Shown here: piece after piece, positions 3,957-40,002 of the stretch
Position numbering within the stretch: position 1 is the first letter of the stretch
Layout of the letters: each line of letters starts with the position of its first letter
NCBI GenBank assembly: GCA_017483465.1
Contig: JAFUWN010000028.1
Location: forward strand, 1 to 40,200
DNA length: 40,200 bases
DNA from: Oscillospiraceae bacterium
GTDB taxonomy: Bacteria > Bacillota > Clostridia > Oscillospirales > Ruminococcaceae
Direction of reading: 5' to 3'
Made by a program: the position numbers and the translations under genes
The notes under the pieces: generated by a model
Seen by the model: the letters and a program-made list of their open reading frames with translations, nothing else
What the model was told of the DNA's origin: nothing
Database searches by the model: none

Positions 3957-4514
3957 TCATTTCGATAATTTCAGATTTAAATACATAGCCGGCCGGATTC
4001 CCCGTTCATAATTGGCATAATGTCCGGTTCCGGAAACGGAGCCGTCCGACCAGACGATACAGAACGTATTCGGTTCGTCACCGTTGGAACGAAGCCACCA
4101 CCAGCAGTTTTTCCTTTCCTGATAAAAAGGCAGAAGATTGACAAAATCTTTCAAATCCTGACTATATCCGACAGCATTCGGCTCGGCCGGAGCAGTACGG
4201 GAAGACAGATCAGGCAGATAGGAATTTATTTCCTCTTCACTCAGTAAAAATAATTTATCCTGTGAAGCAAGATTGCCTGTGACAATTTTCTGCTGTTCTT
4301 CCGGAGAAAAAGTCAGCTGAAAAAAATCATGATTCAGCCATTTCCGGAGTGTACTCCGTTCCCAGTCTATATAAATGCAGTCTGGAAACATGCGTTTGGC
4401 ATCCAGAATATATTTGCTCAGAACGAGCATTTTTTCACGTTCCTCATGCAGTACCAGCCATTCAACAGGCTTTCCGGCATAAGTTCCGAATGTAATTGTT
4501 TGATAGTTTTTCAT
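3957..4514 (-). CDS. DUF6273 domain protein
   Basis: 185 residues without signal peptide. The hallmark is at the C-terminus: WWWLRS, then VWSDGSVSGTGHYANYERGIRPAMYLNL, the WLRSPG...GSVS...GVRPA pattern of DUF6273, a fold related to lectin-like or formylglycine-enzyme-like domains. The N-terminal part (ITFGTYAGKPVEWLVL, ERSTLRKWLN) is also typical. The function of the family is unknown. It is first in a leftward three-gene operon; its TGA overlaps an ATG of the next gene. The ribosome site is GGAGG, eight bases upstream. Confidence 0.8.
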   Translation of the reverse strand: MKNYQTITFGTYAGKPVEWLVLHEEREKMLVLSKYILDAKRMFPDCIYIDWERSTLRKWLNHDFFQLTFSPEEQQKIVTGNLASQDKLFLLSEEEINSYLPDLSSRTAPAEPNAVGYSQDLKDFVNLLPFYQERKNCWWWLRSNGDEPNTFCIVWSDGSVSGTGHYANYERGIRPAMYLNLKLSK

Positions 4515-4536
4515 TTCAAATCCTCCTGACTTATTT

Positions 4537-4565
4537 ATTATACACGAATTTTAAAAAAAATGCAA
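4537..4565 (-). promoter_or_regulatory. Promoter of the DUF6273-GH25-DUF975 operon
   Basis: Reading leftward: -35 TTGCAT (4565-4560), a 17-base spacer and -10 TATAAT (4542-4537) preceded by GTG. It lies about 25 bases before the ATG at 4514. Confidence 0.65.
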
Positions 4566-4603
4566 TAGGTTTCAGAAGGAAACTGAAAAATCTGAAAAAC
4601 TAC

Positions 4604-4632
4604 TTGACAAATTTTTAAAAATATGCTAAGAT
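4604..4632 (+). promoter_or_regulatory. Promoter of the T-box/tyrS transcript
   Basis: TTGACA at 4604-4609, a 17-base spacer, and TAAGAT at 4627-4632 with an extended TGC just before it. The T-box leader begins about 15 bases downstream. Confidence 0.75.
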
Positions 4633-4648
4633 ATAATATATCTGAAAA

Positions 4649-4895
4649 CGCTGTGAAGGAAAGAAGTAAGAAATTTCGCTGTTTACAGAGAAATGCCGGT
4701 CGGTGCAAGGCACGAAACAGAACTTTCTGAAATACATTCCGGAGCGGATTTCCTGAAAATATCTTGATTAGGGAAATACGGAGTGATGCACGTTACAGCA
4801 TTTCGAGATCAGACAGATTTTTTTCTGACTGGTAAACCGAGGTGGTACAGCGGTATTTTGTCGCCCTCTGCATTGGTATGCAGGGGGCGTTTTCT
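4649..4895 (+). promoter_or_regulatory. T-box riboswitch, tyrosine-specific, with terminator
   Basis: Stem I runs from about 4649 to 4746 (CGCT pairs with AGCG, GGAA with TTCC, AGAAA with TTTCT, CTGTTT with AAACAG). The AGTA bulge is at 4665-4668. Opposite it, in the specifier loop, is TAC at 4733-4735, a tyrosine codon followed by a purine. The T-box sequence GAGGTGGTACAGCGG is at 4839-4853. Its TGGT (4843-4846) can pair with ACCA, as expected for a tRNA with discriminator A such as tRNA-Tyr. The terminator is a 12-bp stem (4862-4873 with 4878-4889) followed by TTTT. Uncharged tRNA-Tyr should favour the antiterminator and let transcription into the small membrane gene and tyrS proceed. Confidence 0.92.
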
Positions 4896-4912
4896 GATTG
4901 AGGTGAAATCTC

Positions 4913-5191
4913 TTGAAACTTGATGCAAAATCCAGAAAAAAAGCATTGCTTTTATTAATTGTTATTATTATTTCTATGCTGATTCCTATGAAAATTACGC
5001 ACAAAGACGGCGGAACGGTCGAATATAAAGCTTTGCTCTACAGTGTCATACAATGGCATCAGATTGCTTCTCAGGACTATCATACCGGAATCATACAGGG
5101 CACAGAAATCAGAATTTTATTTTCTACTGTCTATCATAATGCTGAATTTATTCCGGATCATATCGAACATGTTCTGTCACCAGCAGAATAA
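4913..5191 (+). CDS. Small single-span membrane protein of unknown function
   Basis: 92 residues starting at TTG, eight bases after a GAGGTG ribosome site; no ATG is suitably placed upstream. A short basic N-terminus (KSRKK) precedes one hydrophobic span (about residues 11-27). The remainder, with the KDGGTVEYKALLYSVIQWH stretch, should face outside. I do not recognise a named family, though the KDGGTVEYKAL motif resembles short proteins common in Clostridia. It lies between the T-box terminator and tyrS, 36 bases before the latter, so tyrosine starvation should raise both. Confidence 0.7.
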   Translation: MKLDAKSRKKALLLLIVIIISMLIPMKITHKDGGTVEYKALLYSVIQWHQIASQDYHTGIIQGTEIRILFSTVYHNAEFIPDHIEHVLSPAE

Positions 5192-5227
5192 AATAAATTT
5201 TAAAAATCAAATGAAGGAGTAGTTATC

Positions 5228-6445
5228 ATGACTGTTTTTGAAGAACTTGAAAGAAGAGGTCTGCTCGCTCAGCTGACCGACAAAAAAGAAATTGAAGAAT
5301 TAATCAATGCCGGAAAAGCCACTTTCTATATCGGCTTCGACCCGACTGCGGATTCTCTGCATGTAGGTCATTTCATGGCTCTGTGCCTGATGAAGCGTCT
5401 CCAGATGGCCGGCAATAAGCCGATTGTTCTGCTCGGAGGCGGTACCGGTATGATCGGTGACCCGTCCGGTAAGACCGATATGAGAAAAATGCTCACCCCT
5501 GAAACCATTGCTCATAATATCGAATGTTTCAAAAAGCAGATGAGCAGATTTATTGATTTTTCTGATGATAAAGCTATTGCTGTCAATAATGCCGACTGGC
5601 TCATGAATCTGAACTATGTTGAATTATTAAGAGAAGTCGGTGCAAATTTCACTGTCAACAGAATGCTTGCCGCAGAGTGCTATAAGCAGAGATGGGAAAA
5701 AGGCCTGACATTCCTGGAATTTAACTATATGATCATGCAGAGCTATGACTTCTATAGATTATATCAGGATTATGGCTGTAATATGCAGTTCGGCGGTGAT
5801 GACCAGTGGTCCAACATGCTGGGCGGTACGGAACTGATCAGAAGAAAACTCGGTAAAGATGCCTATGCTATGACGATCACACTCCTGCTGAATTCTGAAG
5901 GCAAAAAAATGGGCAAGACGGAAAAGGGTGCTGTCTGGCTTGACCCTGAAAAAACAAGCCCTTATGAATTCTTCCAGTACTGGAGAAACGTTGCGGATGC
6001 TGATGTTATCAAATGCCTTAAAATGCTGACATTCGAGCCGATCGAAAAAATAGAGGAAATGGAACAGAATCTCGAAGGTGCAGGCTTTAACCAAGCAAAA
6101 GAACTGCTGGCTTACAGTCTGACAGAACTCGTTCACGGCAAAGAAGAAGCTGATAAGGCTCTCGAAGCAGCAAAAGCAGTTTTCAGCGGCGGCGGAAATT
6201 CTGAAAATATGCCCTCTACTGCGATTCCGGCAGAGAAACTCACAGACGGTAAAATCAATATTCTGAATCTTCTCGTAGAATGCAAGCTCGTACCGACAAA
6301 ATCTGAGGGCAGAAGAAACGTTCAGCAGGGCGGCATCAGCATCAACGGCGAAAAAATTACAGATCCGAATGCAGAAATTGTTCTTGACGGTGAAGTAATC
6401 ATCAAGAAAGGCAAAAAAGTATTTCATAAAGCAACAATTGCATAA
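5228..6445 (+). CDS. tyrS: Tyrosine--tRNA ligase
   Basis: Full-length (405 residues) class I aminoacyl-tRNA synthetase that charges tRNA-Tyr in the cytoplasm. The HIGH motif is HVGH (45-48) and the KMSKS motif is KMGKT (227-231). Tyrosine-pocket elements FYIGFDPT (33-40), QSYD (171-174) and GGDDQW (189-194) are intact. The last 75 residues form the S4 RNA-binding domain ([20 protein letters not shown], then INGEKI). The ribosome site GAAGGAG is ten bases before the ATG. It is controlled by the tyrosine T-box upstream and closed by a terminator 18 bases after the stop. Confidence 0.98.
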
Positions 6446-6462
6446 GAATTTAAAATTTTCGG

Positions 6463-6500
6463 TCAGTTCTGCACAGCCCGTGCAGAACTGATTTTTATTG
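6463..6500 (+). terminator. Rho-independent terminator of tyrS
   Basis: A 12-bp perfect stem (6463-6474 with 6480-6491), loop AGCCC, followed by TTTTTATT. Confidence 0.9.
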
Positions 6501-6580
6501 ATTTTCTTATAAATTTAAGATTATTTTAAGATTTCAATCATATAATAATAAGTCAGATAAAAAATACAGGAGGATGTTTT

Positions 6581-8851
6581 ATGCCAAATTATAAGCTGAT
6601 CAGTATTTTATGCTGTGCCGTCTGCATGATGACGACAGTATCTGCAATTCCGGTTCATACCGGAACTTTCTCTGTACTCTCTGCTCATGCCGAAGAAGTG
6701 CAGACGGAAATTACAGCCTCTTTCACAAATACTTCCGTTCAGGCCGGTGTGCCTCTGACGGTCACTCTGAATAACGCAACTGCTGAAATTACTTCTTACC
6801 GCTGGACTGTCGGCGGAAAGGAAATCAGTCAGAATTCCGCAAGCTATACCCCTACAGAAGCAGATTATGAAAAAATGATTTCTGTCACTGTGACGGCTGA
6901 CGGAAAAGACTACACCTGCTCGGCATATTGCAGTATTCTTCCGGTTGTGTATCTGCATACAGATACGGAAATCACCAGCAAGACAGAATATATTGACGGT
7001 ACCTGCACAATTCAGGGCAATGCAGAATATTCTGATGAAACTCAGCTCTATTCCGGAGCCATGCAGATTCGTGGCAGAGGCAATTATACATGGGTACATG
7101 ACAAAAAGCCCTATAAAATCAAGCTTGATACCAAAACCGATGTACTCGGCATGGGAACAAGTAAGCACTGGGTTCTGCTTGCAGAGTATATGGACCCTAC
7201 ACATCTCAGAAATGAGATCATGCCGGAGCTTTCCCGTATTGTCGATATGGAATATACTGCCGACAGCAAGGCCGTTGCTGTTGTCCTGAACGGAGAGTAT
7301 AACGGCGTTTATCATCTGAGTGAAAATGTCCGGATTGCAGATGACCGTGTGAATATCTACGACTGGGAAGAAACTGCCGAAGAGATTGCAAAAGCTCTCT
7401 ACAAAGAGAAAAAAGCCTCCGGCATGACAAAAACAGACCGTGACGATCTGGAAGATCAGCTTGTACAGAATCTGGACTGGATTACTTCCGGAGTTTTTAC
7501 ATGGAATGACAGTTCTTATCAGGTCAGCGATTATGTGCAGATTCCCGATCGTATTGACGGCGGTTATCTTCTGGAACTGGATACTTATGATGATTATCAT
7601 GTCAAGCAGATTTCCGACTTCAATACAGAGGCCGATCAGCCGATTCAGTTCAAGAGTCCGGAATATGCCGTGACTAATTCGGAATTATATAATTATGCAA
7701 AAGATTATATCCAGAGTTTTGAAAATGCGGTCAGTGCTGATGATTATTATGCAGATTATAACAATATATCAAAACATTACAGTCAGCTTTTTGATATGGA
7801 TTCTCTTGTCAAATACTGGATGATTCTGGAATTGTCTTCCAACTGTGACGGAATGCGTTACAGCAATTACATGTATAAAGATTTTGATACACTGTTCAAG
7901 ATGGGGCCGGCATGGGATTTCGACTGGACATGGAATGTAAGTTATATCGTACCTGCTGACGAATGGTGGACAGATCAGAATTATTATAACAATTCTGTCC
8001 ACTGGTACAAGAATCTTGTGAAAGACCCGTATTTTATCACCAAAGCTTATGAATTATATCAGGCTCATAAAGACGAATTCAATGCGATCAGCAAAGACGG
8101 CGGCCTATTTGATACACTTGCCGAAACATATGCTATTTCTTCAAAAGCCGATCTTGCAAAATGGCATTCTGATCAGAATTATGAATCTGAACTGGAAAAA
8201 ACAAAAGAATATATTACCCAGCGTTTCGCATGGCTCGGCCAGCAGTTCGATTCTGTAGAATCTCTTGCAGAATCGCTCGGCTATGAAGCTTCTGACAAGC
8301 TTGCTGTGGCAGAACTCTCCGGTCAGAATGGCAGTATTCTTGTAAAAGCCTCTGTTTCTGATGACTCTGCTGAAACAGTTACATTCCATATCAACGGCAT
8401 ATTCGCCGGAGAAGCTGAAATTCAAAACGGAACCGCAAGTCTGAATATCAGTTCTTCCCTGCTGAATCAGGACAGTACGGCTTTGAATACAATTCAGATC
8501 AGAATGAAAGATGCTCAGGGTAAATATCTCGCACAGGAAGCAGATTCTTCCGGATGGGGCGGCCGTGGCGGCTGGAATCCGTGGGAACCGCAGAATACTG
8601 CTTCTGAAAGAACCGTTTATTCTAATTTCAAGACTTTCTCTGCGGATGAACTCGGCGTATCTCCGGCAGTTCCGGGAGATGTCAATTGTGATGGTATTGT
8701 TAATATTTTTGATTTTGTTCTGCTGAAACAGCATTTTCTGAAATCCGGAACGCTTTCCGGACAGGGTCTGGCAAATGCCGACTGCAATGCAGACGGAACA
8801 GTTTCCCTGACGGATATTATTAAATTACAGAAATTCCTGCTGACAGTATAA
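6581..8851 (+). CDS. Secreted CotH kinase family protein with C-terminal dockerin
   Basis: 756 residues. A signal peptide (about 1-38, ending SAHA) is followed by an Ig-like region (about 47-110). The CotH domain (about 120-560) has RGRGNYTW, KKPYKIKLD, HWVLLAEYMDPTHLRNE, GVYHLSENV and the acidic GPAWDFDW near residue 445. CotH proteins are kinase-like; spore-coat CotH phosphorylates other coat proteins, and CotH-dockerin proteins occur in cellulosomal ruminococci. A further Ig-like section (about 570-655) and a Gly/Trp-rich linker lead to a type I dockerin (about 699-756) with two calcium loops beginning GDVNCDGIVN and ADCNADGTVS. The dockerin should anchor it to a cohesin. The ribosome site AGGAGG is well placed, and its own terminator follows. 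Confidence 0.92.
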   Translation: MPNYKLISILCCAVCMMTTVSAIPVHTGTFSVLSAHAEEVQTEITASFTNTSVQAGVPLTVTLNNATAEITSYRWTVGGKEISQNSASYTPTEADYEKMISVTVTADGKDYTCSAYCSILPVVYLHTDTEITSKTEYIDGTCTIQGNAEYSDETQLYSGAMQIRGRGNYTWVHDKKPYKIKLDTKTDVLGMGTSKHWVLLAEYMDPTHLRNEIMPELSRIVDMEYTADSKAVAVVLNGEYNGVYHLSENVRIADDRVNIYDWEETAEEIAKALYKEKKASGMTKTDRDDLEDQLVQNLDWITSGVFTWNDSSYQVSDYVQIPDRIDGGYLLELDTYDDYHVKQISDFNTEADQPIQFKSPEYAVTNSELYNYAKDYIQSFENAVSADDYYADYNNISKHYSQLFDMDSLVKYWMILELSSNCDGMRYSNYMYKDFDTLFKMGPAWDFDWTWNVSYIVPADEWWTDQNYYNNSVHWYKNLVKDPYFITKAYELYQAHKDEFNAISKDGGLFDTLAETYAISSKADLAKWHSDQNYESELEKTKEYITQRFAWLGQQFDSVESLAESLGYEASDKLAVAELSGQNGSILVKASVSDDSAETVTFHINGIFAGEAEIQNGTASLNISSSLLNQDSTALNTIQIRMKDAQGKYLAQEADSSGWGGRGGWNPWEPQNTASERTVYSNFKTFSADELGVSPAVPGDVNCDGIVNIFDFVLLKQHFLKSGTLSGQGLANADCNADGTVSLTDIIKLQKFLLTV

Positions 8852-27232: not shown

Positions 27233-27276
27233 AATCCCAAGAATGCGTAATTTTACGTTTTCTTGGGATTTTTTTA
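27233..27276 (+). terminator. Terminator downstream of ssrA
   Basis: An 11-bp outer stem (27233-27243 with 27260-27270) extended inside by CGTAA/TTACG, followed by TTTTTTT. Confidence 0.85.
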
Positions 27277-27713: not shown

Positions 27714-27742
27714 TTGCAATTTTACTTGTAATATGCTATAAT
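27714..27742 (+). promoter_or_regulatory. Promoter of the CxP peptide operon
   Basis: TTGCAA (27714-27719), 17-base spacer, TATAAT (27737-27742) with extended TGC. The first peptide gene starts about 25 bases after the expected start point. Confidence 0.8.
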
Positions 27743-27773
27743 AAATATGTAAAAGAAATGGGGGGTAAATTTC

Positions 27774-28037
27774 ATGTTAGAAATGGAATGCTTAACAGAA
27801 GGTAACTCTGAAATCGATACTTCGTCCTGTACTCCTGATTATAGGGGATGTTTTCCAGAAGATTATAGAGAACGTGGTGGATGTATGCCTTATTCTTTAC
27901 CAGGTAGTGTTAATTTCATAGATGTAGTAGAAAACACTCTGTATGAAATTGAAGAAACAAAAGAATTAGTGCAGGATTTTGTTGACCTTGCCAAAGATGT
28001 CGCAAGCCTGAATTGCTTGCCGGAAGCCTTTGAATGA
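27774..28037 (+). CDS. RiPP precursor candidate 1, four Cys-x-Pro motifs, long helical insert
   Basis: 87 residues. The N-terminus MLEMECLT is shared with the next two genes. After it come C19-T-P-D, C26-F-P-E and C37-M-P-Y. A stretch of about 40 acidic, heptad-like residues follows (FIDVVENTLYEIEETKELV, then QDFVDLAKDVA), and a final C81-L-P-E lies near the C-terminus. The only other Cys is C6 in the shared leader. The ribosome site is GGGGGT, nine bases before the ATG. I do not recognise a named precursor family. The shared leader, the repeated CxP pattern and the radical SAM gene downstream support a modified peptide. The long insert could give this member a carrier or partner role. Confidence 0.75.
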   Translation: MLEMECLTEGNSEIDTSSCTPDYRGCFPEDYRERGGCMPYSLPGSVNFIDVVENTLYEIEETKELVQDFVDLAKDVASLNCLPEAFE

Positions 28038-28060
28038 GAATGCAGAAGGAGGTGTTAGAA

Positions 28061-28192
28061 ATGCTGGAAATGGAATGCTTAACAGTAAACAATACTGAAG
28101 TTGCTGTGATGTGCGACCCTGACCCTGGATGTCCCCCAGATTATCCTGAGTCATGCGCTCCTGATTGGGCTTGCTTGCCTACCGATATCTAA
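28061..28192 (+). CDS. RiPP precursor candidate 2, four Cys-x-Pro motifs
   Basis: 43 residues, starting 23 bases after the first precursor gene, with AAGGAGGTG seven bases upstream. The leader MLEMECLT is identical to that of precursor 1. The rest contains C18-D-P-D, C24-P-P-D, C32-A-P-D and C38-L-P-T, so every Cys after the leader is followed by x-Pro and three of four by Asp at the third position. The core is acidic with no Lys or Arg at all. Such a compact Cys/Pro/Asp peptide is typical of a modified natural product precursor and unlike an ordinary protein. Confidence 0.78.
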   Translation: MLEMECLTVNNTEVAVMCDPDPGCPPDYPESCAPDWACLPTDI

Positions 28193-28249
28193 TGTGGAGA
28201 ATTTTTACAGTTTGTATCCTAAAATCAACATATTTAGGAGGTGAGAAAA

Positions 28250-28375
28250 ATGTTGGAACTGGAATGCTTAACAGATGAACTTTTTTTAAATATTTCAGAA
28301 TTTGAATGTGGTCCATCTTGTTTTCCAGATAATGCGTGTGTGCCAGAAAACCGCTGGTGTGGTCCTACACAATAA
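28250..28375 (+). CDS. RiPP precursor candidate 3, four Cys-x-Pro motifs
   Basis: 41 residues with leader MLELECLT and a TTTAGGAGGTG ribosome site. The core has C20-G-P-S, C24-F-P-D, C30-V-P-E and C37-G-P-T. As in the other two, exactly four CxP motifs follow the leader, though only two have an acidic third residue. Spacing between the cysteines (4, 6 and 7 residues) differs from precursor 2 (6, 8 and 6). It is the last peptide gene before an intercistronic hairpin and the radical SAM gene. Confidence 0.78.
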   Translation: MLELECLTDELFLNISEFECGPSCFPDNACVPENRWCGPTQ

Positions 28376-28409
28376 TTAAAAGAGCAAAATACTTAATCAA
28401 AATGAAAAA

Positions 28410-28443
28410 ACGCGGCGATATTATTATAATAATCGCCGTGCGT
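28410..28443 (+). repeat. Intercistronic hairpin between precursor genes and radical SAM gene
   Basis: CGGCGAT (28413-28419) pairs with ATCGCCG (28432-28438), with a further ACG/CGT pair outside a two-base bulge and an AT-rich interior. There is no U tract, so it looks more like an RNA-processing or stability element than a full terminator. Confidence 0.6.
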
Positions 28444-28460
28444 GCTTATAAGGAGAAGCT

Positions 28461-29678
28461 ATGCCAAATTATCGTTTTTGTGATAATGTGTATCTTGTAA
28501 GAGGATATAAAAAAGCCTGTATCTACGATTTAGAACATAAAAAGCTGTACCACATCAGCAAGGAAATGGCAGATTTCATAGAAGATTGTGTCTGTGAGAA
28601 AAAAGAAATCTTTGTCAGACAAGAAATCAATGCAATCAAATCTCTGGAAGAAAATCAGATACTGTGCGGCGGCAGATATACTAAGTCTGCAATGCCTGAT
28701 ATAATGGAACTGAAAAAATCAGTTAGAATTCAGTTTGCATGGATAGAAGTCTGTAACTCTTGCAATCTTCGGTGTATACATTGCTATAATGAATCATCCT
28801 CAGAGTGCCATACATTTATGTCTTTGGAAGATTTTAAGAAAATTTGCGATGAGTTGATAGCTTATGGAGTAGAAAGTATACAGTTCATAGGCGGTGAACC
28901 TCTCTGTAATAAAGAACTTCGTCAGATGATGGAGTATGCTTCCGGAAAATTCAAAATGATAGAAGTTTTCACAAATGGAACTATGATAGATAAAACATGG
29001 TGTGAATTTTTTAAAGAACATCATATCCGTACCGCTTTATCAGTCTATTCCTACATACCGGAAGAACATGAAAAAGTAACTAATTTAGAAGGTTCTCATA
29101 AAAAAACAATGCAAGCAATAGAAATGCTGAAAAATTTTGAAATTCCCTACCGAGTTGCTACAACACATATGAAGGGCATAGAAATCGGTGAAGAAAATAC
29201 AAAGTTGTTTCACATCAATCCGAATAAAGATGTTATCAGAATGGCAGGACGAGGAAATATCGGCTTGCTTTCTCCTGATTTGATTAAGAAAAAACTAATC
29301 ACAAAGAATACTTTTTCAAGACCTCTCAATCCGGATGCTGTGAAAAAGGCTGTCAGCGGTCATCAGTGCTTTGCAAGCAAAATCTATATTTCTGCTGATT
29401 TGGAAGTATATCCTTGTGTAATGGAACGAAGGCTCTCACATGGGAACTTAAAAAATGCTACACTGGAAAATATTTTAAGTTCAGAAATCTTGTCTTTTAA
29501 CAAAGATAAAATAAAAGAATGCAGTGAATGTGAGTTCAGATATGCTTGTTACGACTGCCGACCGGATTCTTTAACGGAAGATATACAGGAGAAACCTTAC
29601 TACTGCACATATAACGTGCGTAATGGTTTCTGGAAAAATGCGGATGATGTTGTACAAACAATACTGAATTCCAAATAA
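28461..29678 (+). CDS. Radical SAM/SPASM peptide maturase with N-terminal PqqD-like region
   Basis: 405 residues. The first 85 (VYLVRGYKKACIYDLEHKKLYHISKEMADFIEDCV) look like a PqqD-type RRE that would hold a leader peptide. The radical SAM cluster motif is C101-NLR-C105-IH-C108, followed by FIGGEPL near 142. The C-terminal SPASM region has C303, C319, C354, C357, C363 and C366, with a further Cys near 382, enough for two auxiliary 4Fe-4S clusters. Enzymes of this layout install thioether or carbon links on RiPP precursors (sactipeptides, ranthipeptides, SCIFF). The AAGGAG site is well placed. The three upstream Cys-x-Pro peptides are the evident substrates. No transporter or leader peptidase gene is next to it. 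Confidence 0.88.
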   Translation: MPNYRFCDNVYLVRGYKKACIYDLEHKKLYHISKEMADFIEDCVCEKKEIFVRQEINAIKSLEENQILCGGRYTKSAMPDIMELKKSVRIQFAWIEVCNSCNLRCIHCYNESSSECHTFMSLEDFKKICDELIAYGVESIQFIGGEPLCNKELRQMMEYASGKFKMIEVFTNGTMIDKTWCEFFKEHHIRTALSVYSYIPEEHEKVTNLEGSHKKTMQAIEMLKNFEIPYRVATTHMKGIEIGEENTKLFHINPNKDVIRMAGRGNIGLLSPDLIKKKLITKNTFSRPLNPDAVKKAVSGHQCFASKIYISADLEVYPCVMERRLSHGNLKNATLENILSSEILSFNKDKIKECSECEFRYACYDCRPDSLTEDIQEKPYYCTYNVRNGFWKNADDVVQTILNSK

Positions 29679-29709
29679 AGATATTTTTACGCAATAGGAG
29701 GATAAGTGT

Positions 29710-30135
29710 ATGCGTTTTTCTGGAGATGTTTTAATTATTGACCCTGCTGAAGTAATACCTGACTATGATTATGACTCGTTTGATGAGGAAGATATGGAGA
29801 AATTAGGCTATAGCCAAGCAATTTTTGTTGAATTAAACGGGAATTACCCATTTGTTGTAGGTTTACAGGATGTTGGTGGTGATACAGAATGTATTTATAC
29901 AAGTTCTAAAGTTCTTTGTTTTGTATATTTGGATGAAGCAGAAGAATATTGCTCGTACCTTTCACGTTATGATGAGGATGAAAATGAAGATGCTAATTTT
30001 ACTATCGGAGATGACTGCATTATTTTAAGAAATTTTTCAGGAGAAATTGATTCAGATGGTACAACATTTGGAAAGTTAGGGAATGAATACATTAACCTTG
30101 GAGTTTTAGAAAACTCAGAAGATGATGAAGAGTAA
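29710..30135 (+). CDS. Very acidic protein of unknown function in the RiPP operon
   Basis: 141 residues starting 31 bases after the maturase gene, with TAGGAGGA upstream. It has no signal peptide or span. Composition is strongly acidic (DYDYDSFDEEDMEKL; RYDEDENEDANF; a final NSEDDEE). The beginning MRFSGDVLIIDPAEVI resembles the strand-rich start of short proteins found in phages and mobile elements, but I cannot name a family. Position suggests a role linked to the peptides, such as immunity, partner or substrate carrier; this is inference only. Confidence 0.65.
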   Translation: MRFSGDVLIIDPAEVIPDYDYDSFDEEDMEKLGYSQAIFVELNGNYPFVVGLQDVGGDTECIYTSSKVLCFVYLDEAEEYCSYLSRYDEDENEDANFTIGDDCIILRNFSGEIDSDGTTFGKLGNEYINLGVLENSEDDEE

Positions 30136-30180
30136 TTTGGGTTCTGTATTCTCTCTTTGTGCTACTGTGCTTGTGAGAAA

Positions 30181-30294
30181 ATGAGAAGTATTTCTGGACA
30201 TGCTTTATTTTGGACAGTAACAGGATTGTGTACCAATCAAAACTACGTATCTGTAACAAATTTCAAAACCGAATGTATATTATTATTCCGATAA
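30181..30294 (+). CDS. Possible 37-residue leader peptide before the amidoligase attenuator
   Basis: An ATG frame of 37 codons (begins MRSISGHALFWTVTGLC) whose stop codon lies within the 5' arm of the terminator at 30286. The ribosome site (TGAGA) is poor. It is listed because a short frame ending inside a terminator stem is the layout of a translation-controlled attenuator; chance is quite possible. Confidence 0.25.
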   Translation: MRSISGHALFWTVTGLCTNQNYVSVTNFKTECILLFR

Positions 30295-30325
30295 GACACT
30301 TCCAGTCTTATCGGAATTTTTTGTT
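30286..30325 (+). terminator. Terminator/attenuator directly upstream of the amidoligase gene
   Basis: A 12-bp perfect stem (30286-30297 with 30305-30316), loop ACTTCCA, followed by TTTTTTGTTTT. The ribosome site of the next gene (AGGAGG) begins just after the T tract, with no room for a promoter. Either it ends the RiPP transcript with some readthrough, or it is a regulated attenuator for the amidoligase operon. Confidence 0.85.
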
Positions 30326-30341
30326 TTAGGAGGTTTTTGAA

Positions 30342-31436
30342 ATGGAAGAAGAAACAAGATACTGCGACTATTGCGGACATGAACTGGAGGAGTACGAAGG
30401 TACATGGGTTGGAGATGACCTGCTTTGTGATGAATGCTGTGATGACCATACCATTACCTGCGACCGTTGTGGAGAAGTTGTCTGGACTCAGGATAGTGTT
30501 GATGATGACCATACTTTTCTGTGCAGAAGCTGTTTTACTAACTATTATGAACGCTGTGAATGCTGCGGAACGATTATGCACAATGACTTTGTAAATTGGA
30601 GACATGACCTGCCCTACTGTGAATCATGCTTTGATGAATTTCGGGATGAAATCGAGGAGTACAGTTACAGGCCGAACGTATGTTTCTTAGGTGAAGGAAA
30701 ACTTTACATGGGTGTAGAACTGGAAGTAGATGAAGGCGGTAAGGATGATGAAAATGCAAGAATCCTGAAGGAAATTGTTAATTTCAGGAAGGAGCATATC
30801 TACATCAAAGCAGATGGTTCTTTGGATGATGGCTTTGAGATTGTAAGTCATCCCATGACTTTGCAGTATCATCAGGAAGAAATGAACTGGGAAGATGTTC
30901 TGAAAGAAGCTATTAGCATGGGGTATCGTTCACATCAGACTTCTACTTGTGGACTTCATGTGCATGTGAATCGTGATGCATTTGGCTCAAATCAGGCAGA
31001 GCAGGAAGAAGTCATTGCTAAGATTCTTTACTTCGTTGAAGCAAACTGGAATGAACTGTTTCGCTTTAGCAGAAGAAGTCATTACAACATGGACAGATGG
31101 GCGGCAAGATATGGCTTTGAGAAAACAGGCAGAAAAATTCTTGAAAAAGCGAAAAGCGGCTATACCAGCAGATATGTCGCTGTGAATTTGAAAAATTATT
31201 ACACCATTGAATTTCGACTTTTTAGAGGGACTTTAAAGTACAACACTTTCATAGCTACATTGCAGATGGTGCAAAAAATCTGTGATGTAGCTTTTTCTAT
31301 GTCCCAAGAAGATTTAGAAAATCTTTCATGGTCTGAATTCGTAGCTAAAATTGAATCTCCGGAATTGATTCAGTATCTGAAAGAAAGACGGCTGTACATC
31401 AATGAAGCAGTTACAATTGAGGAGGGCGAAGAATAA
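30342..31436 (+). CDS. Putative amidoligase with N-terminal zinc-binding cysteine clusters
   Basis: 364 residues. Residues 1-105 carry a series of CxxC pairs (C8/C11, CDECC, CDRCG, CRSC, CECCG, CESC), which look like tandem LIM/zinc-ribbon fingers. The remainder matches the Amidoligase_2 family: GVELEVD (124-130), KADGSLDDGFEIVSHP (156-171), CGLHVHVNR (203-211) and TIEFRLFRGTL. Family members are glutamine-synthetase-fold ATP-dependent carboxylate-amine ligases, predicted by comparative genomics (Iyer, Aravind and colleagues) to modify peptides or proteins, often in phages and mobile elements. Its stop overlaps the start of a class II glutamine amidotransferase by one base, so the two probably act together. 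The substrate is unknown. Confidence 0.85.
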   Translation: MEEETRYCDYCGHELEEYEGTWVGDDLLCDECCDDHTITCDRCGEVVWTQDSVDDDHTFLCRSCFTNYYERCECCGTIMHNDFVNWRHDLPYCESCFDEFRDEIEEYSYRPNVCFLGEGKLYMGVELEVDEGGKDDENARILKEIVNFRKEHIYIKADGSLDDGFEIVSHPMTLQYHQEEMNWEDVLKEAISMGYRSHQTSTCGLHVHVNRDAFGSNQAEQEEVIAKILYFVEANWNELFRFSRRSHYNMDRWAARYGFEKTGRKILEKAKSGYTSRYVAVNLKNYYTIEFRLFRGTLKYNTFIATLQMVQKICDVAFSMSQEDLENLSWSEFVAKIESPELIQYLKERRLYINEAVTIEEGEE

Positions 31437-32377
31437 TGTGTGCAATATTTGGATTTCTGGACTATGGGAAGAAAATTTCTTACAAAATGCTTGTGAAGTT
31501 ATTAAAGGCTCTTTCAATTGCTGCCAAATCTCGTGGAACGGATGCTACAGGAATCAGCTATGTGCGTGATAATGATATAGTAATCTTCAAGAAGCCTGTT
31601 CCGGCGCATGAGTTACAGCTTTACTTCCCGAAGAACACGACAACGCTTATAGGTCATACACGCTTTGCCACTCAGGGCAGTGAACAGCAGAACTACAACA
31701 ATCATCCGTTTGCCGGACAGGCAGGAGCGCAAAGTTTCAGCCTTGCTCACAACGGCGTACTGCACAACGACAAAGCCTTACGGTATTCCCATTCTCTGCC
31801 CGATACGAAAATTGAAACGGATTCCTATATTGCCGTGCAGTTGCTGGAACAGAATCAGGAAGTCAGCTTGCAGACCGTGAAAACAATGGCTGAAACTGTA
31901 CAGGGTTCATTCACATTCTCGGTTCTGCGTGACGATGATACATTATTCCTTGTCAAAGGCAGTAATCCGCTGACAATCTGGCATTTTCCTGACCTTGGGC
32001 TGTATGTGTACGCATCTACAGAAGAAATCCTGCTGAACGCTGTCCGGACTGCAAAGATTCAGGAAAACTTCAGAAAGGTAAAAATGCCGTCTGAAACTAT
32101 CCTGCAAATTTCACCGGACGGCAGTACTTCTTCAATCGGCTTTGATATTTCAGAGGGATATTTTTCAAAATATCAATGGCGTTTCTACGATTGGCTGGAA
32201 GAGGAAGAATCGGAAGAAGATTTCATGTTGTCGGATGAGGATGACAGTCTTGAAGATGATATTACTCTTCTGATGTACTGGGGTTATTCTTCAAGGGAAA
32301 TTGACGAACTGCTGACAGATACCGAACTCTTTGAAGAAACCGTGCAGGAAATCCGGCGAATGGAAACAACGTTCTGA
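31436..32377 (+). CDS. Class II glutamine amidotransferase partner of the amidoligase
   Basis: 313 residues beginning MCAIFGFLDYG, with the nucleophile Cys at position 2. Further class II features are SRGTDATGISY, HTRFATQG, NNHPF and LAHNGVLHN. The N-terminal 215 residues form the Ntn-hydrolase domain. The tail is acidic (EEEESEEDFMLSDEDDS) and ends in a helical segment. It should release ammonia from glutamine, or hydrolyse a gamma-glutamyl bond. The start codon shares a base with the amidoligase stop (TAATG), so translation is coupled. Not closely similar in sequence to the chromosomal amidotransferase at 20499. Confidence 0.88.
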   Translation: MCAIFGFLDYGKKISYKMLVKLLKALSIAAKSRGTDATGISYVRDNDIVIFKKPVPAHELQLYFPKNTTTLIGHTRFATQGSEQQNYNNHPFAGQAGAQSFSLAHNGVLHNDKALRYSHSLPDTKIETDSYIAVQLLEQNQEVSLQTVKTMAETVQGSFTFSVLRDDDTLFLVKGSNPLTIWHFPDLGLYVYASTEEILLNAVRTAKIQENFRKVKMPSETILQISPDGSTSSIGFDISEGYFSKYQWRFYDWLEEEESEEDFMLSDEDDSLEDDITLLMYWGYSSREIDELLTDTELFEETVQEIRRMETTF

Positions 32378-32392
32378 AAGGAGGGAAAATAC

Positions 32393-32482
32393 ATGAAATT
32401 TATTCTTATGATAGCTGTTGGTATACAAGCGAAAGCCGTTGCCGGAATTGCAAGAACGCTTGGACTTTTGTTCAGAAAGTAA
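32393..32482 (+). CDS. 29-residue cationic amphipathic peptide
   Basis: ATG seven bases after a strong AAAGGAGGG site, 15 bases past the amidotransferase stop. It encodes MKFILMIAVGIQAKAVAGIA followed by RTLGLLFRK: hydrophobic with four basic and no acidic residues, and Gly/Ala spacing that could form an amphipathic helix. A stable hairpin follows. No homologue is known to me. Confidence 0.5.
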   Translation: MKFILMIAVGIQAKAVAGIARTLGLLFRK

Positions 32483-32490
32483 GAAACACA

Positions 32491-32514
32491 GGGGCTGTTC
32501 CAGTTTACAGCCCC
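32491..32514 (+). repeat. Intercistronic GC-rich hairpin
   Basis: GGGGCTGT (32491-32498) pairs with ACAGCCCC (32507-32514) across an 8-base loop. Only a short T tract follows, so termination would be partial at most. Confidence 0.6.
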
Positions 32515-32539
32515 GAAATTTAATTCAGGAGGAAAACAT

Positions 32540-33091
32540 ATGAAAACCGAAACCACAACCATTAAAAGTAAAGCACTGTTCAGTGATGACAGAACACACA
32601 GACTCTTACTCCGCAAAGAATGGGACAAGACAAAGAAAACTGCTATGATAATCATGATAAATCCGAGTGCTGCCGACACGCTCAATTGTGATTTAACAAC
32701 AATGCTGGTAATCAACAATCTGAATGAGATGGGGTTCGGATGTGTCAATATTGCCAATCTGTACAGTAAAATCATGAATAAGCTGTCACTCCGGTTCAAC
32801 TCGGATGAAGATTTGCTCCACGAGGAAAATGATACAGTCATTCAGCAGTATGCGGCTATGAGTGATGCTGTTATTATTGCATGGGGAACTGCCGGAAATA
32901 CCAGTCAGCGTGTCCGTGACTGCAAGGATGAACTTCTGGAAGTCCTTGAACCGTATGCTAACAAACTTTACCAGATTGGCGAAAAAGGCTATCATCCGCT
33001 GACACCTGCCATCCGTGCCAACTGGAAACTCGAACCCTATAACATCAATTTGGAGGTAGAAGAAAATGATGAAGATACTGAATCTGAATGA
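32540..33091 (+). CDS. DUF1643 family protein
   Basis: 183 residues. The DUF1643 pattern is clear: LLLRKEWDKTKKTAMIIMINPSAADTLNCDLTT, then GFGCVNIANLYSKI, then AIIAWGTAG-like AVIIAWGTAGNTSQR. The biochemical role is unknown. DUF1643 genes are found on mobile elements and are among the conserved genes beside ccr recombinases in staphylococcal SCC elements. An AGGAGG site precedes the ATG, and it overlaps the next gene by 26 bases. Confidence 0.88.
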   Translation: MKTETTTIKSKALFSDDRTHRLLLRKEWDKTKKTAMIIMINPSAADTLNCDLTTMLVINNLNEMGFGCVNIANLYSKIMNKLSLRFNSDEDLLHEENDTVIQQYAAMSDAVIIAWGTAGNTSQRVRDCKDELLEVLEPYANKLYQIGEKGYHPLTPAIRANWKLEPYNINLEVEENDEDTESE

Positions 33092-33359
33092 AATTCAGAA
33101 TATCCCCTATCCGGCTCTGAAAAGCCATATCTCAGAGAAAGTGCAGAACTGGAAGAACGAATATGGAATTGAAAGCCTTGACGAAATCGGCTGTTTCGTG
33201 ATTTTGGATGCAGATGAGAAAGGATTCTTTGCTGAATCCGAAATGGAATTTACAGAAATTCTGCACCTTGAAAATAAAACCTATCTGCATGGAGTCAGAA
33301 TGCTCGGTGACTGCTACGGTGAAGATACTTTCTTTCCGGTTGAAAGAGTGAGAAAATGA
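33066..33359 (+). CDS. Small acidic protein of unknown function
   Basis: 97 residues. Its start lies inside the end of the DUF1643 gene, eight bases after GGAGGT, and its TGA overlaps the ATG of the recombinase gene. The tight overlaps on both sides argue that it is real and coupled. Sequence is acidic (ESLDEIGCFVILDADEKGFFAESEMEF) with no span or signal. No family is recognised. Confidence 0.7.
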   Translation: MMKILNLNEIQNIPYPALKSHISEKVQNWKNEYGIESLDEIGCFVILDADEKGFFAESEMEFTEILHLENKTYLHGVRMLGDCYGEDTFFPVERVRK

Positions 33360-34915
33360 GTATCATCATTCCGAGAGTGGCTCTGTATGCGAGATTCAGT
33401 TCCGACAATCAAAGAACTGAATCCATAGATGCACAGGTCAGAGCCATGAAGAAATATTGCCAAGACCAGCACTGGCAAATTGTGGAAACTTATGTTGATG
33501 AAGCACGCTCCGCAACAACTGACCGCAGACCAAACTTTCAGCAGATGATAGCCGACAGTGCAAAAGGAATCTTCGACATAGTGCTTGTGCATAAACTTGA
33601 CAGGTTTTCAAGAAATCGCTATGATTCAGCAATCTACAAATCTAAGCTGAAAAAGAACCGTGTCAGAATTGCAAGTGTTCTTGAAAGAATAGACGATAGC
33701 CCTGAATCAGTTATGATGGAAGCAATGCTTGAAGGCATGGCAGAGTATTACAGTCGCAATCTGAGCCGTGAAGTCATGAAAGGCATGAATGAGACAGCAC
33801 TCCAGTGTAAACACACTGGGGGCTGTCCGCCGTTAGGCTATGACCTTGACAAAAACAAATATCTGATAATCAACAAGCATGAAGCTGAAGCAGTCAGAAC
33901 CATATTTGAAATGTTCGATAAAGGTTGTGGCTATACTGCTATCATCAACTATCTGAATGATAATGGCTATGCTCCCAAGCGTGGCGGAATATTTGGTAAA
34001 AATAGTCTGTGCAGTATTCTTTCCAACGAAAAATATACAGGCGTTTTCGTTTTTAACAAATCTGTTTCAAAAGACAGCGAAGGCAAGCGAAACGGACACA
34101 GACAGAAATCATCAGACCAAATAATCCGCATTGAGAACGGTTGTCCGGCAATCATCAGCAAGGAACTTTTTCAGAGAGTGCAAAAACGGAAGAAAAAGAA
34201 CAAACAGAATACAGGACAGTATCACAGCAAGGAATTTTACATGATGACCGGAAAAGTGTTCTGCGGTGTTTGCGGTAAGAGAATTCAGGGAAATGTCAGA
34301 TATTGTGGCAGAAGCAAACTCCGGCTTGCTACTTACCGCTGTGATACACTCCGGAAATTCTGTAATAACAAGGAAAACAACAAAGACTATCTGGATGTGT
34401 ACATTGTGGAACTGCTGAAAGAAAAAATATTCAACAGCAAAGCTCTTCATAAGAGAATTGAGGCAATAAATACCTATATTCAGCAGTATAATGCAGAATA
34501 TGATACAATGTTTGAAGCAATCCAGACAGAATTTGACAGTGTGAATGAAAGTCTTTCCAACATCACGATTGCAGTCGAAAAAGGCGTTATTACTCAGCCA
34601 TTGATTGAAAGAGCTGAAGAACTGGAACAAAAAAGAAATGAATTGCAAATAAAGCTGTTTGCTTTGAAGCGTTTCAATCTTTTAGAGTATAAAGAATGTT
34701 CCCATCTGATAGCAGATTTCAGAAATATGCCAAGAAACACACAGGAATTCAGAACATTTGTGCAGACTTATATCGAAAAAATTGTGACATATCCATATCA
34801 TCTGGAAATTACGATAAATACAGGCTTTGGAATCACAGACGAACTGAATGAAACCATTACTATCAGACGGGGTGAACTCTATGCTCTGTTTGAATCGAAA
34901 ACGAAGGAGGGCTAA
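33356..34915 (+). CDS. Large serine recombinase 1
   Basis: 519 residues. The resolvase domain begins VALYARFSSDNQ with catalytic Ser15 and has VHKLDRFSRNRYD. The recombinase domain (about 160-270) includes GGCPPLGYDLD and NEKYTGVFVFNKSV. A zinc ribbon (CGVCGKRIQGN, with C and C pair about 30 residues on) and a coiled-coil region (QTEFDSVNESLSNI; RAEELEQKRNEL) follow. Such enzymes integrate and excise elements between short att sites. It is the size and layout of Ccr and TnpX proteins. The DUF960 gene starts three bases after its stop. Confidence 0.95.
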   Translation: MSIIIPRVALYARFSSDNQRTESIDAQVRAMKKYCQDQHWQIVETYVDEARSATTDRRPNFQQMIADSAKGIFDIVLVHKLDRFSRNRYDSAIYKSKLKKNRVRIASVLERIDDSPESVMMEAMLEGMAEYYSRNLSREVMKGMNETALQCKHTGGCPPLGYDLDKNKYLIINKHEAEAVRTIFEMFDKGCGYTAIINYLNDNGYAPKRGGIFGKNSLCSILSNEKYTGVFVFNKSVSKDSEGKRNGHRQKSSDQIIRIENGCPAIISKELFQRVQKRKKKNKQNTGQYHSKEFYMMTGKVFCGVCGKRIQGNVRYCGRSKLRLATYRCDTLRKFCNNKENNKDYLDVYIVELLKEKIFNSKALHKRIEAINTYIQQYNAEYDTMFEAIQTEFDSVNESLSNITIAVEKGVITQPLIERAEELEQKRNELQIKLFALKRFNLLEYKECSHLIADFRNMPRNTQEFRTFVQTYIEKIVTYPYHLEITINTGFGITDELNETITIRRGELYALFESKTKEG

Positions 34916-37993: not shown

Positions 37994-38188
37994 ATGCTAA
38001 TAAAGAATGTTACAATCACAAGAAACAGCATCAGTAAAGATAGCTGTTTCACTCAGGACTTCAAATACAAGGATGCTGTTGTAAATAATAAGCAGAACCC
38101 TACTTCTGATAGCATTATCATAAACCTGAGTCTTGTACTTCTGGATATGTTTCTGGAAATGCAGTCAGAACAGACGGAGAAAGTGTGA
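37994..38188 (+). CDS. Small protein of unknown function between DUF927 and recombinase 2
   Basis: 64 residues from the ATG at 37994, seven bases after AAAGGA; a TTG two codons earlier is less likely. It begins MLIKNVTITRNSISKDSCFT and ends in a helix (INLSLVLLDMFLEMQSEQTE). The stop overlaps the GTG start of the recombinase gene, so it is translationally coupled. Small unnamed genes also lie between cch and ccr in SCC elements, but I see no sequence match to claim. Confidence 0.6.
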   Translation: MLIKNVTITRNSISKDSCFTQDFKYKDAVVNNKQNPTSDSIIINLSLVLLDMFLEMQSEQTEKV

Positions 38189-40002
38189 TAAATATGGGGC
38201 ATAAAAAATCACTTTCGGCGATTGCTTATACGAGAGTTTCAAGTGAAAAACAGGTTGATAACTACTCTCTGGATTTTCAGGAAGATTTCTGTTCCAGTTA
38301 CGCCAAAGCGAATAACATGGAACTGAAAAAAATATTTCGTGAGGAAGGTCATACTGGCACAAATACAAACAGACCTGCTTATCAGGAAATGAGACAGTAT
38401 CTGAAAGAAAACCATGTGGATGTGGTACTGGTGCATCATCTTGATCGTCTACATCGGGATGAAACAAATACCTTTAACGACCTCAGATACTTCCGTCAGA
38501 ATCATATCAGGCTTTTAGCAATTGCTGACGGCATAGATTCAGATGATGAAATGGCAAGTCTGGTAATCGCTGTAAAAGCAGCATTAGCAGCAGATTTTTC
38601 TCGTAATCTTGCCAAAGAAACCAGAAAAGGACTCATAGAAGGTGCAAAAGAAGGCAGACACATGGGAGGTAAACCGCCATATGGATTTAAAGTGAATCAT
38701 GATACCGGATTTCTGGAAATAGACGAAACAACTGCTCCGGCAGTCAGACAAATGTTTCAGCTTTACGCCGAAAGCTTTACTACAGGACAAATCTGTGACT
38801 GGCTGAAACAGCATCACTATAAGACCAGAAGTGGCAATGATTTTACTGCTTCTGCATTAAATTCCATTTTCCATAACGAAAAATATAAGGGCTGCTACAC
38901 TTGGGATAAAGCAGTTCCCAAAGACAGCGAGGGGCATCGCAACAGTCATAAACAGAAAGAAGAATATATCAGAATTGAGGGTGGATGCCCTGCTGTTGTC
39001 CCTCCTGAACTGTTTGAAAAAGTGCAGGAGAAACTAAAAGAAAACAGTTTGAAAGCAAGTCGCAACAAAGCCAAAAGATACTACCCGTTAAACGGACGTA
39101 TCTTCTGTGGTGAGTGTCGTCAGCGTATGACTGGAAATGTCCAGTACAGCGGAAAATCTAAATACTACCAATATCGCTGTTCTTCCGGATGCGGAAATAA
39201 ACCTGTTCGTGCTGAATATCTTGAAAATTATGTGCTGAATGTGGTAAAGGAATGTCTGTTTTCAGAGACAAATGCAAATCACATTCTGGAATCTTTGAAT
39301 CAGCTTTCTATAGACCATAAGCATGAGACAGATGCACAGTATCAACAGCTCATGACGAAGAAAGCTGGTCTGGAAACAGCACAGAATAACCTTCTGAATG
39401 CTTTGGAGTCCGGCAAAGGCACTTCGGCTATCCAGAAACGCCTTGAACGTCTGTGTACGGAATCAGAACAGATAGAAATCAAATTGACAAATATTAACAG
39501 AACTCATCATCAGTTCACAGAAGAAGACCTCAACAGACTAAAACAGAAATTTGAGACATATCTGATGACACATGACACCGTGAACACGAAAAGGCTTCTG
39601 GACTGCACCATTCAGAAAATAGATATTGGTGCAAATGAAATACAGCTTGATTTTGCTGATAGTATTAGCATCAGCAGTGAAACAAAGAAAAAACTAAAAG
39701 GAGATTCGATTATGAATACAAAGACTATCAAAAATGAAAAGAATGTGACTCTTAATGCTTTTCTTCTCGGACTGAGAGATGGAGAATCCAAAAACGAACT
39801 GATTTTGCACTTGGCAATCAGACCATATCATGAATGCAACTACTCCTCCACCTGTGACTTAGCTTTGAGTATGGAATCTGTAAGCCAACTCTTGATGAAA
39901 AAAGAAATCGAATTATGGGAACTGATAGGCTGTAAAATGGACTTGACAGTAAAGTGGAACGGTGAACAGATAACACAGGTTCTTGACCTCAATGTAGCAT
40001 AG
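38185..40002 (+). CDS. Large serine recombinase 2 with C-terminal extension
   Basis: 605 residues from a GTG that overlaps the previous stop; an ATG at 38194 is an alternative. The resolvase domain starts AIAYTRVSSEKQ (catalytic Ser19) and has VHHLDRLHRDETN. The recombinase domain has GGKPPYGFKVN and NEKYKGCYTWDKAV. The stretch AVPKDSEGHRN, then RIEGGCPAVVPPELFEKVQ, closely parallels recombinase 1. A zinc ribbon (CGECRQRMTGN, YRCSSGCGN) and a coiled coil follow. The last 96 residues, from Met at 39712, form an extra domain not usual in this family and may also be made separately. It lies nearest the right edge of the element and ends at a terminator. Confidence 0.93.
   Translation: MINMGHKKSLSAIAYTRVSSEKQVDNYSLDFQEDFCSSYAKANNMELKKIFREEGHTGTNTNRPAYQEMRQYLKENHVDVVLVHHLDRLHRDETNTFNDLRYFRQNHIRLLAIADGIDSDDEMASLVIAVKAALAADFSRNLAKETRKGLIEGAKEGRHMGGKPPYGFKVNHDTGFLEIDETTAPAVRQMFQLYAESFTTGQICDWLKQHHYKTRSGNDFTASALNSIFHNEKYKGCYTWDKAVPKDSEGHRNSHKQKEEYIRIEGGCPAVVPPELFEKVQEKLKENSLKASRNKAKRYYPLNGRIFCGECRQRMTGNVQYSGKSKYYQYRCSSGCGNKPVRAEYLENYVLNVVKECLFSETNANHILESLNQLSIDHKHETDAQYQQLMTKKAGLETAQNNLLNALESGKGTSAIQKRLERLCTESEQIEIKLTNINRTHHQFTEEDLNRLKQKFETYLMTHDTVNTKRLLDCTIQKIDIGANEIQLDFADSISISSETKKKLKGDSIMNTKTIKNEKNVTLNAFLLGLRDGESKNELILHLAIRPYHECNYSSTCDLALSMESVSQLLMKKEIELWELIGCKMDLTVKWNGEQITQVLDLNVA
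39712..40002 (+). CDS. Possible independently translated C-terminal domain of recombinase 2
   Basis: Within the recombinase frame, AAAAGGAG (39696-39703) stands eight bases before ATG at 39712. This would give a 96-residue protein (begins MNTKTIKNEKNVTLNAFLLG). The region has the strand-rich look of a small separate domain (NELILHLAIRPYHEC; KMDLTVKWNGEQITQVLDL). Either it is an in-frame nested gene or a formerly separate gene fused to the recombinase. Confidence 0.4.
   Translation: MNTKTIKNEKNVTLNAFLLGLRDGESKNELILHLAIRPYHECNYSSTCDLALSMESVSQLLMKKEIELWELIGCKMDLTVKWNGEQITQVLDLNVA

Follow-up and report, generated by a model that had tools for sequence, protein, structure and literature searches.

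A probable RiPP system pairing a radical SAM/SPASM enzyme with Cys-x-Pro peptides in an Oscillospiraceae bacterium

Three short peptide genes and a gene for a radical S-adenosylmethionine (SAM) enzyme with a SPASM domain stand in a row in a 40,200-nucleotide stretch of an Oscillospiraceae genome (contig JAFUWN010000028.1; hereafter the window). Together they very probably form a ribosomally synthesized and post-translationally modified peptide (RiPP) system directed at Cys-x-Pro (CxP) motifs. All core cysteines of the three peptides lie in CxP triplets, and CxP-rich peptides recur beside related enzymes in other genomes. The original prediction, made from the window sequence, described a RiPP-type cluster with a radical SAM/SPASM maturase, a leader-binding domain and a recurring CxP motif, and this outline is supported, the leader-binding domain being itself a predicted feature. 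The central genes are as follows.

27774-28037, + strand: precursor peptide 1, 87 aa; leader MLEMECLT; 4/4 core Cys in CxP; long acidic tail
28061-28192, + strand: precursor peptide 2, 43 aa from its MLEMECLT start; 4/4 core Cys in CxP; mechanical open reading frame (ORF) from 28034
28250-28375, + strand: precursor peptide 3, 41 aa from its MLELECLT start; 4/4 core Cys in CxP; mechanical ORF from 28241
28461-29678, + strand: radical SAM/SPASM maturase, 405 aa; predicted leader-binding domain at about 1-72, radical SAM domain from about 90, SPASM domain with seven invariant Cys

Precursors, leaders and the CxP rule

The three consecutive small genes (27774-28375) share an MLE(M/L)ECLT start, as originally described. 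Behind this 8-residue leader each peptide has four Cys, all 12 of them in C-x-P, and Asp or Glu follows Pro in 8/12 (three, three and two in precursors 1, 2 and 3), which reproduces the earlier counts. The assigned starts are supported because the ribosome-binding site AGGAGGTG precedes genes 2 and 3 (at 28047 and 28236, + strand) and a G-run precedes gene 1; a repeat search of the window groups the three start regions into a three-copy family. None of the window precursors has an NCBIfam match at E values up to 1, and only precursor 1 returns Pfam rows, two in number and both far below cut-off.

The rule extends across the enzyme's family, taken here as ten complete enzymes, that of the window and those of nine further loci, at 32-55% identity. 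When 13 family precursors are pooled, 93 of 97 core Cys fall in CxP, whereas 2000 composition-preserving shuffles average 22.5 and reach at most 35; the pool leaves out locus L054, which is partly masked, and a candidate at L070 that was found later. Offset counts, which also drop the near-duplicate L035, place Pro at +2 of 85/89 core Cys, 17 residue types at +1, Asp or Glu at +3 of 23/89 and Arg at +4 of 1/89. CxP is the sole constant feature of the family cores, and no acceptor position is conserved.

Pairing of enzyme and peptide was scored by a rule requiring an ORF of 25-200 aa with at least three CxP and at least 60% of its Cys in CxP. The rule is passed by 8/9 non-window loci with a complete enzyme and by 0/51 other fetched radical SAM loci. 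The window passes too when the one leader Cys of each peptide is counted along with the core Cys, which brings CxP-rich neighbours to 9/10 complete family loci; homologous enzymes lacking such neighbours had been named as the finding that would speak against the original prediction, and only L034, with a weak candidate (1/3 Cys in CxP), comes near this. Single precursors occur at L032 (6/6 core Cys in CxP), L033 (9/9), L052 (7/7), L053 (28/29) and L035 (8/8, cut by the contig end), and pairs of precursors at L031 (3/4 and 3/3) and L059 (9/9 and 7/7). The 51 control loci (257,529 bases, about 5 kb each) are shorter than the nine family loci (85,493 bases); they include L069, a truncated family member with a downstream 25-aa candidate bearing one CxP, as well as four loci of the sulfatase-maturating enzyme anSME and two sites that are each represented twice (L057/L060 and L058/L061). 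Independent lineages are fewer than loci, because L033/L035 and L053/L054 are close pairs. No exporter or protease common to the family loci was found.

Some of these loci have features of their own. The L053 precursor (7606-8091, - strand) carries its 28 CxP motifs in CPPSQCRP repeats and is long enough to look more like a repeat protein than like a typical small RiPP. At L070, a truncated family enzyme and another gene that looks radical SAM-like by eye are followed by a peptide (2007-2093) that begins MDLELLT and has one CSP close to its end; it is perhaps a minimal precursor. A 645-aa ORF (6227-8164) directly follows the family enzyme at L034 and appears by eye to combine an acetyltransferase-like start with a radical SAM-like half.

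Most precursors open with an LExLT-like motif, as read by eye, in the variants LEMECLT, FELELMT, LELLN, QLDCLT, LELLT, IEKLT and NIEKMT, with LELV at L034. The MLExECLT leader, named in the original prediction as something to look for beside homologous maturases, recurs in this looser form in most precursors; leaders of Nif11 or acidic type occur elsewhere. Long leaders are found at L033 and L035. The former matches the Nif11 model TIGR03798 over cut-off (43.2 bits), which makes the L033 precursor alike to known Nif11-leader precursors; the latter resembles it by eye, and the L053 leader is acidic. The window leaders are not of Nif11 type. That leader types differ before the same core under one enzyme family is, in our view, the best indication of CxP as the target of the chemistry.

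The enzyme, its family and known maturases

Pfam and the family alignment confirm the 405-residue enzyme with CxxxCxxC and SPASM cysteines that had been predicted. Radical_SAM (73.9 bits, cut-off 29.5), Fer4_12 (28.7, cut-off 22) and SPASM (23.4, cut-off 21.5) all score above threshold, the CxxxCxxC motif is C101, C105 and C108, and the SPASM residues C303, C319, C354, C357, C363, C366 and C382 are invariant in ten family members. The N-terminus had been called PqqD-like. Pfam PqqD gives no match in the window enzyme, and evidence from sequence alone for a RiPP recognition element (RRE) is weak or negative, but the best fold matches of a separately predicted N-terminal domain model (mean predicted local distance difference test score 73.8) are leader-bound RRE structures. 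The enzyme N-terminus is thus predicted to fold like an RRE; the full-length model is too poor for reading the active site. With its domains over Pfam cut-off, a predicted N-terminal RRE and an adjacent leader-core precursor, the enzyme has the broad hallmarks of a radical SAM/SPASM RiPP maturase.

The more specific known groups fit less closely. None of the best 25 of 64 matching NCBIfam models is over cut-off for the enzyme, in agreement with the original statement that no described family with a CxP motif was known. The maturases SkfB and AlbA of sactipeptides, a class whose thioethers join S to an alpha carbon, are alike in joining radical SAM and SPASM domains and in acting on Cys-containing substrates, and AlbA has seven SPASM Cys, the same number as the window enzyme (excerpt of PMC5682303). 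Yet the models for AlbA (NF012164, 79.6 bits against a cut-off of 850), SkfB (TIGR04403, 61.3 against 300) and StsB (NF045574, 74.6 against 625) are all far below threshold, and it is CxP that marks the substrates of the present family. Maturases of ranthipeptides, the class with thioethers from S to a non-alpha carbon, such as PapB (freyrasin) and CteB (thermocellin), differ in that no conserved Asp/Glu acceptor is present here, and the PapB model NF047865 reaches 55.5 bits against 340. The Nif11-associated radical SAM maturase TIGR04064 reaches 53.3 against 518.7. CcpM (TIGR04068) is likewise a radical SAM maturase of a Cys-rich peptide, and its alignment over residues 16-225 extends into the N-terminal domain, but the score is 53.8 against 500; the CcpM family is not known to include a CxP rule.

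A further comparison is with anSME, a radical SAM-SPASM enzyme that reads a Cys-x-Pro motif (excerpt of PMC8746622) and is the top row in the fold comparison. The window family differs from anSME in lacking the Asp after an auxiliary-cluster Cys and the substrate Arg at +4, in having one SPASM Cys fewer and in its extra N-terminal domain. A search of the open-access literature, motif-directed queries included and with subscription literature mostly outside it, returned no description of a CxP family. RiPP systems built on an RRE-radical SAM-SPASM enzyme are already known as a kind; the precursor rule and the enzyme family look new.

The enzyme is rare. Some radical SAM match occurs in 85/100 relatives of the window genome (own genome included), the best outside the own genome being at 31% identity (E 1e-20). 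A scan of genome contigs gave 18 loci, five of them close and the other 13 partial matches at 19-32%. The close loci come from Ruminococcus flavefaciens (L031, 55%), Treponema sp. (L032, 49%), an uncultured bacterium (L034, 43%), Eubacteriales (L033, 41%) and Clostridiales (L035, 39%). Searches of 391 genomes of the class yielded G152 (L049/L052), G124 (L050/L053) and G157 (L051/L054), those of 398 genomes of the phylum yielded G589 (L056/L059), and those of 297 genomes of the family yielded a copy cut off at the contig start in G1022 (L069/L070). With the own genome included, the enzyme is found in 4/391 (E 1e-40), 4/398 (E 1e-35) and 2/297 genomes (E 1e-40), two of the four phylum matches (L057 and L058) being low-scoring. 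The orders of G589 (20 genomes) and G152 (22 genomes) returned only those two genomes themselves. Three protein scans of viral contigs gave no relatives, and plasmids and phages gave only remote radical SAM matches, at 22-32% identity in the rows listed (15/134 and 8/8 records).

Neither low-scoring phylum match is counted as a family member. L057/L060 scores 197 bits and has no ORF of at least 25 aa with two CxP; L058/L061 scores 123 bits, over 66-343. At L061 this distant radical SAM gene (4439-5644, - strand, 123 bits with the family profile) is grouped with a PqqD gene of separate standing that exceeds the Pfam cut-off (6750-7115, - strand) and, beside it, a 41-aa ORF with 2/2 Cys in CxP (7185-7310, - strand). 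The group is possibly a second CxP system.

Chemistry at the triplet

The proposed system has two parts, short precursors and one RRE-radical SAM-SPASM enzyme that would act on the cysteines of C-x-P motifs. The leader, LExLT-type in most precursors, would be bound by the N-terminal RRE, and a 5'-deoxyadenosyl radical may then abstract hydrogen inside the triplet. The change is probably confined to the triplet, because motif spacing across the family precursors ranges from 3 to 72 and only Pro at +2 is fixed; that both the RiPP assignment and this local chemistry are right has slightly better than an even chance. In the preferred but tentative scheme, which falls somewhat short of even chances, the product is a thioether within the triplet. 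The Cys sulfur would be joined to a carbon of X (i+1; a six-membered ring if C-alpha) or of Pro (i+2; a nine-membered ring if C-alpha), ring sizes that are our own count. One such small ring would form at every motif, and the SPASM clusters would carry off two electrons. Both ring sizes are known from sactipeptides, six-membered in enteropeptin and nine-membered in suisactin; the suisactin model peptide has its acceptor two positions N-terminal to the Cys, not C-terminal to it (excerpt of PMC12395415).

A narrower and rather doubtful version makes Pro the acceptor, with Cys sulfur linked to the Pro carbon two residues on and strings of nine-membered Cys-x-Pro thioether rings. Such an acceptor would be independent of X and of the residues after Pro, which would explain both the sole conservation of C-x-P and the CAP ending of the L053 precursor (...NCAP-stop).

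An unlikely but serious rival is oxidation of the Cys alone, as in anSME, in which abstraction of a C-beta hydrogen would yield formylglycine, or else a thioaldehyde open to further reaction. It has weight because anSME reads (C/S)XPXR (excerpt of PMC8746622) and abstracts the C-beta hydrogen (excerpt of PMC5682303), and, needing no acceptor residue, it explains why none is conserved. This rival also assumes a CxP system and triplet-local chemistry, so that the estimates given here overlap. The enzyme is, however, below the cut-off of the anSME model TIGR03942 (63.5 against 349.45 bits), and in a PDB sequence search SkfB, the best-scoring relative, outscores anSME (90.9 against 55.4 bits). The residue directly after the auxiliary-cluster Cys is Val or Ile in all ten family sequences and Asp in both anSMEs aligned; in anSME this Asp stands next to the Aux I Cys and serves as the base. 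We know of no formylglycine RiPP, which also counts against this reading. A thioether is judged about twice as plausible as formylglycine because Asp is replaced by Val/Ile, the +4 Arg is missing (present at one of 89 Cys) and the SPASM Cys number seven, not eight.

Equally unlikely is a sactipeptide-like course in which thioethers reach acceptors at variable positions beyond the triplet and the role of Pro is limited to shaping or marking the donor Cys. Sactipeptide acceptors are diverse, and the rank of SkfB in the PDB search favours this course, but the wide motif spacing and the lack of a conserved acceptor position speak against it, and the single-motif L070 candidate, whose enzyme is truncated by the start of the contig, offers few acceptor places.

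Ranthipeptide-like thioethers from Cys to Asp or Glu across CxP(D/E), the chemistry first proposed, are quite improbable. PapB does form Cys-Asp and Cys-Glu links (excerpt of PMC11002830), and the window has an acidic residue behind Pro in 8/12 motifs; over the whole family the figure is only 22/93, with 0/28 at L053, 0/3 in each L031 peptide and 1/9 at L033. With L053 ending in CAP-stop and the L070 candidate in CSPA-stop, no acidic acceptor follows the terminal motif. The analogy with freyrasin and PapB is weak because of this scarcity, and the PapB model stays far below cut-off. Least probable of all is that the peptides go unmodified as metal-binding or structural proteins while the enzyme acts elsewhere: L053 does resemble a low-complexity Cys-Pro repeat protein and the loci share no exporter or protease, but the recurrent pairing with a predicted-RRE enzyme and the short leaders with a common motif argue otherwise.

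The gene set, its surroundings and significance

Further features of the region are listed here.

27714-27742, + strand: promoter-like site of sigma-70 type (TTGCAA-17-TATAAT, a TG ahead of the second hexamer; 10/12 matches)
28411-28440, + strand: RNA hairpin between precursors and enzyme, without a U-run behind it
29710-30135, + strand: acidic protein without assigned family, 141 aa; cassette-specific
30285-30317, + strand: hairpin resembling an intrinsic terminator, with a T-run; right cassette edge

The promoter-like site and the terminator-like hairpin would bracket the gene set 27774-30135. The former proves nothing alone, because fewer such sites were found in the region (8) than expected from shuffles (11.3), and it sits in DNA common to a congener without the cassette; terminator-like sites number 2 against 1.1 expected. 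The segment 28376-28460 folds at -17.5 kcal/mol (z -2.1; 8/200 shuffles equally stable), and its hairpin may mark a site of processing or attenuation.

The three precursors, the enzyme and the 141-aa protein look like a replaceable cassette, because 27748-30315 has no DNA alignment in the congener G008 (locus L079) while both flanks align. To the left, smpB-ssrA aligns at 82.6% and a HicB-like gene with intergenic DNA up to 27747 at 73.9%; to the right, an amidoligase gene and the start of an amidotransferase gene (30316-31851) align at 73.6% and a DUF1643 gene at 79.5%. The congener holds a 146-aa ORF in the interval, without a DNA match in the window. This comparison rests on one congener, L080 and L081 being aligned only in smpB-ssrA (L081 at a contig end). 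An ssrA-integrated element was considered as the cassette source and dropped, because no second copy of the ssrA 3' end was found in the window, the longer alignments end near 27238-27276 and the stretch without counterpart is 27748-30315; smpB-ssrA is conserved in 35/41 searched genomes.

The 141-aa protein, whose gene the original prediction does not list, belongs to no NCBIfam or Pfam family and has no DNA match in the congener. Among 100 genomes it has a full match in its own only, with one further match at E 4.6e-4. As a general partner of the enzyme it was rejected, with no counterpart at ten other loci (best E 0.24); a role in self-protection is possible, as speculation. Downstream, genes for Amidoligase_2, a class II glutamine amidotransferase and DUF1643 (30342-33091) keep their order in the congener, which lacks the RiPP cassette. 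Two large serine recombinase genes lie near the cassette (33356-34915, by Pfam; 38185-40002, by eye) and are 70% alike over an 84-nt stretch; no borders of an element were found.

An RRE-radical SAM-SPASM enzyme paired with CxP peptides amounts to a testable enzyme-substrate rule that none of the best 25 of 64 NCBIfam models names. The core motif is retained across changes of leader type, which points to leader recognition as separable from core chemistry, and precursors with from one motif (a candidate) to 28 are a substrate series already at hand. Should the modification be confined to the triplet, the family would bring the peptide toolbox a compact change at Cys: a thioether to Pro or X, or else an anaerobic route to several aldehydes per peptide. 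With Pro as the acceptor, the linkage would be a Pro-acceptor radical crosslink.
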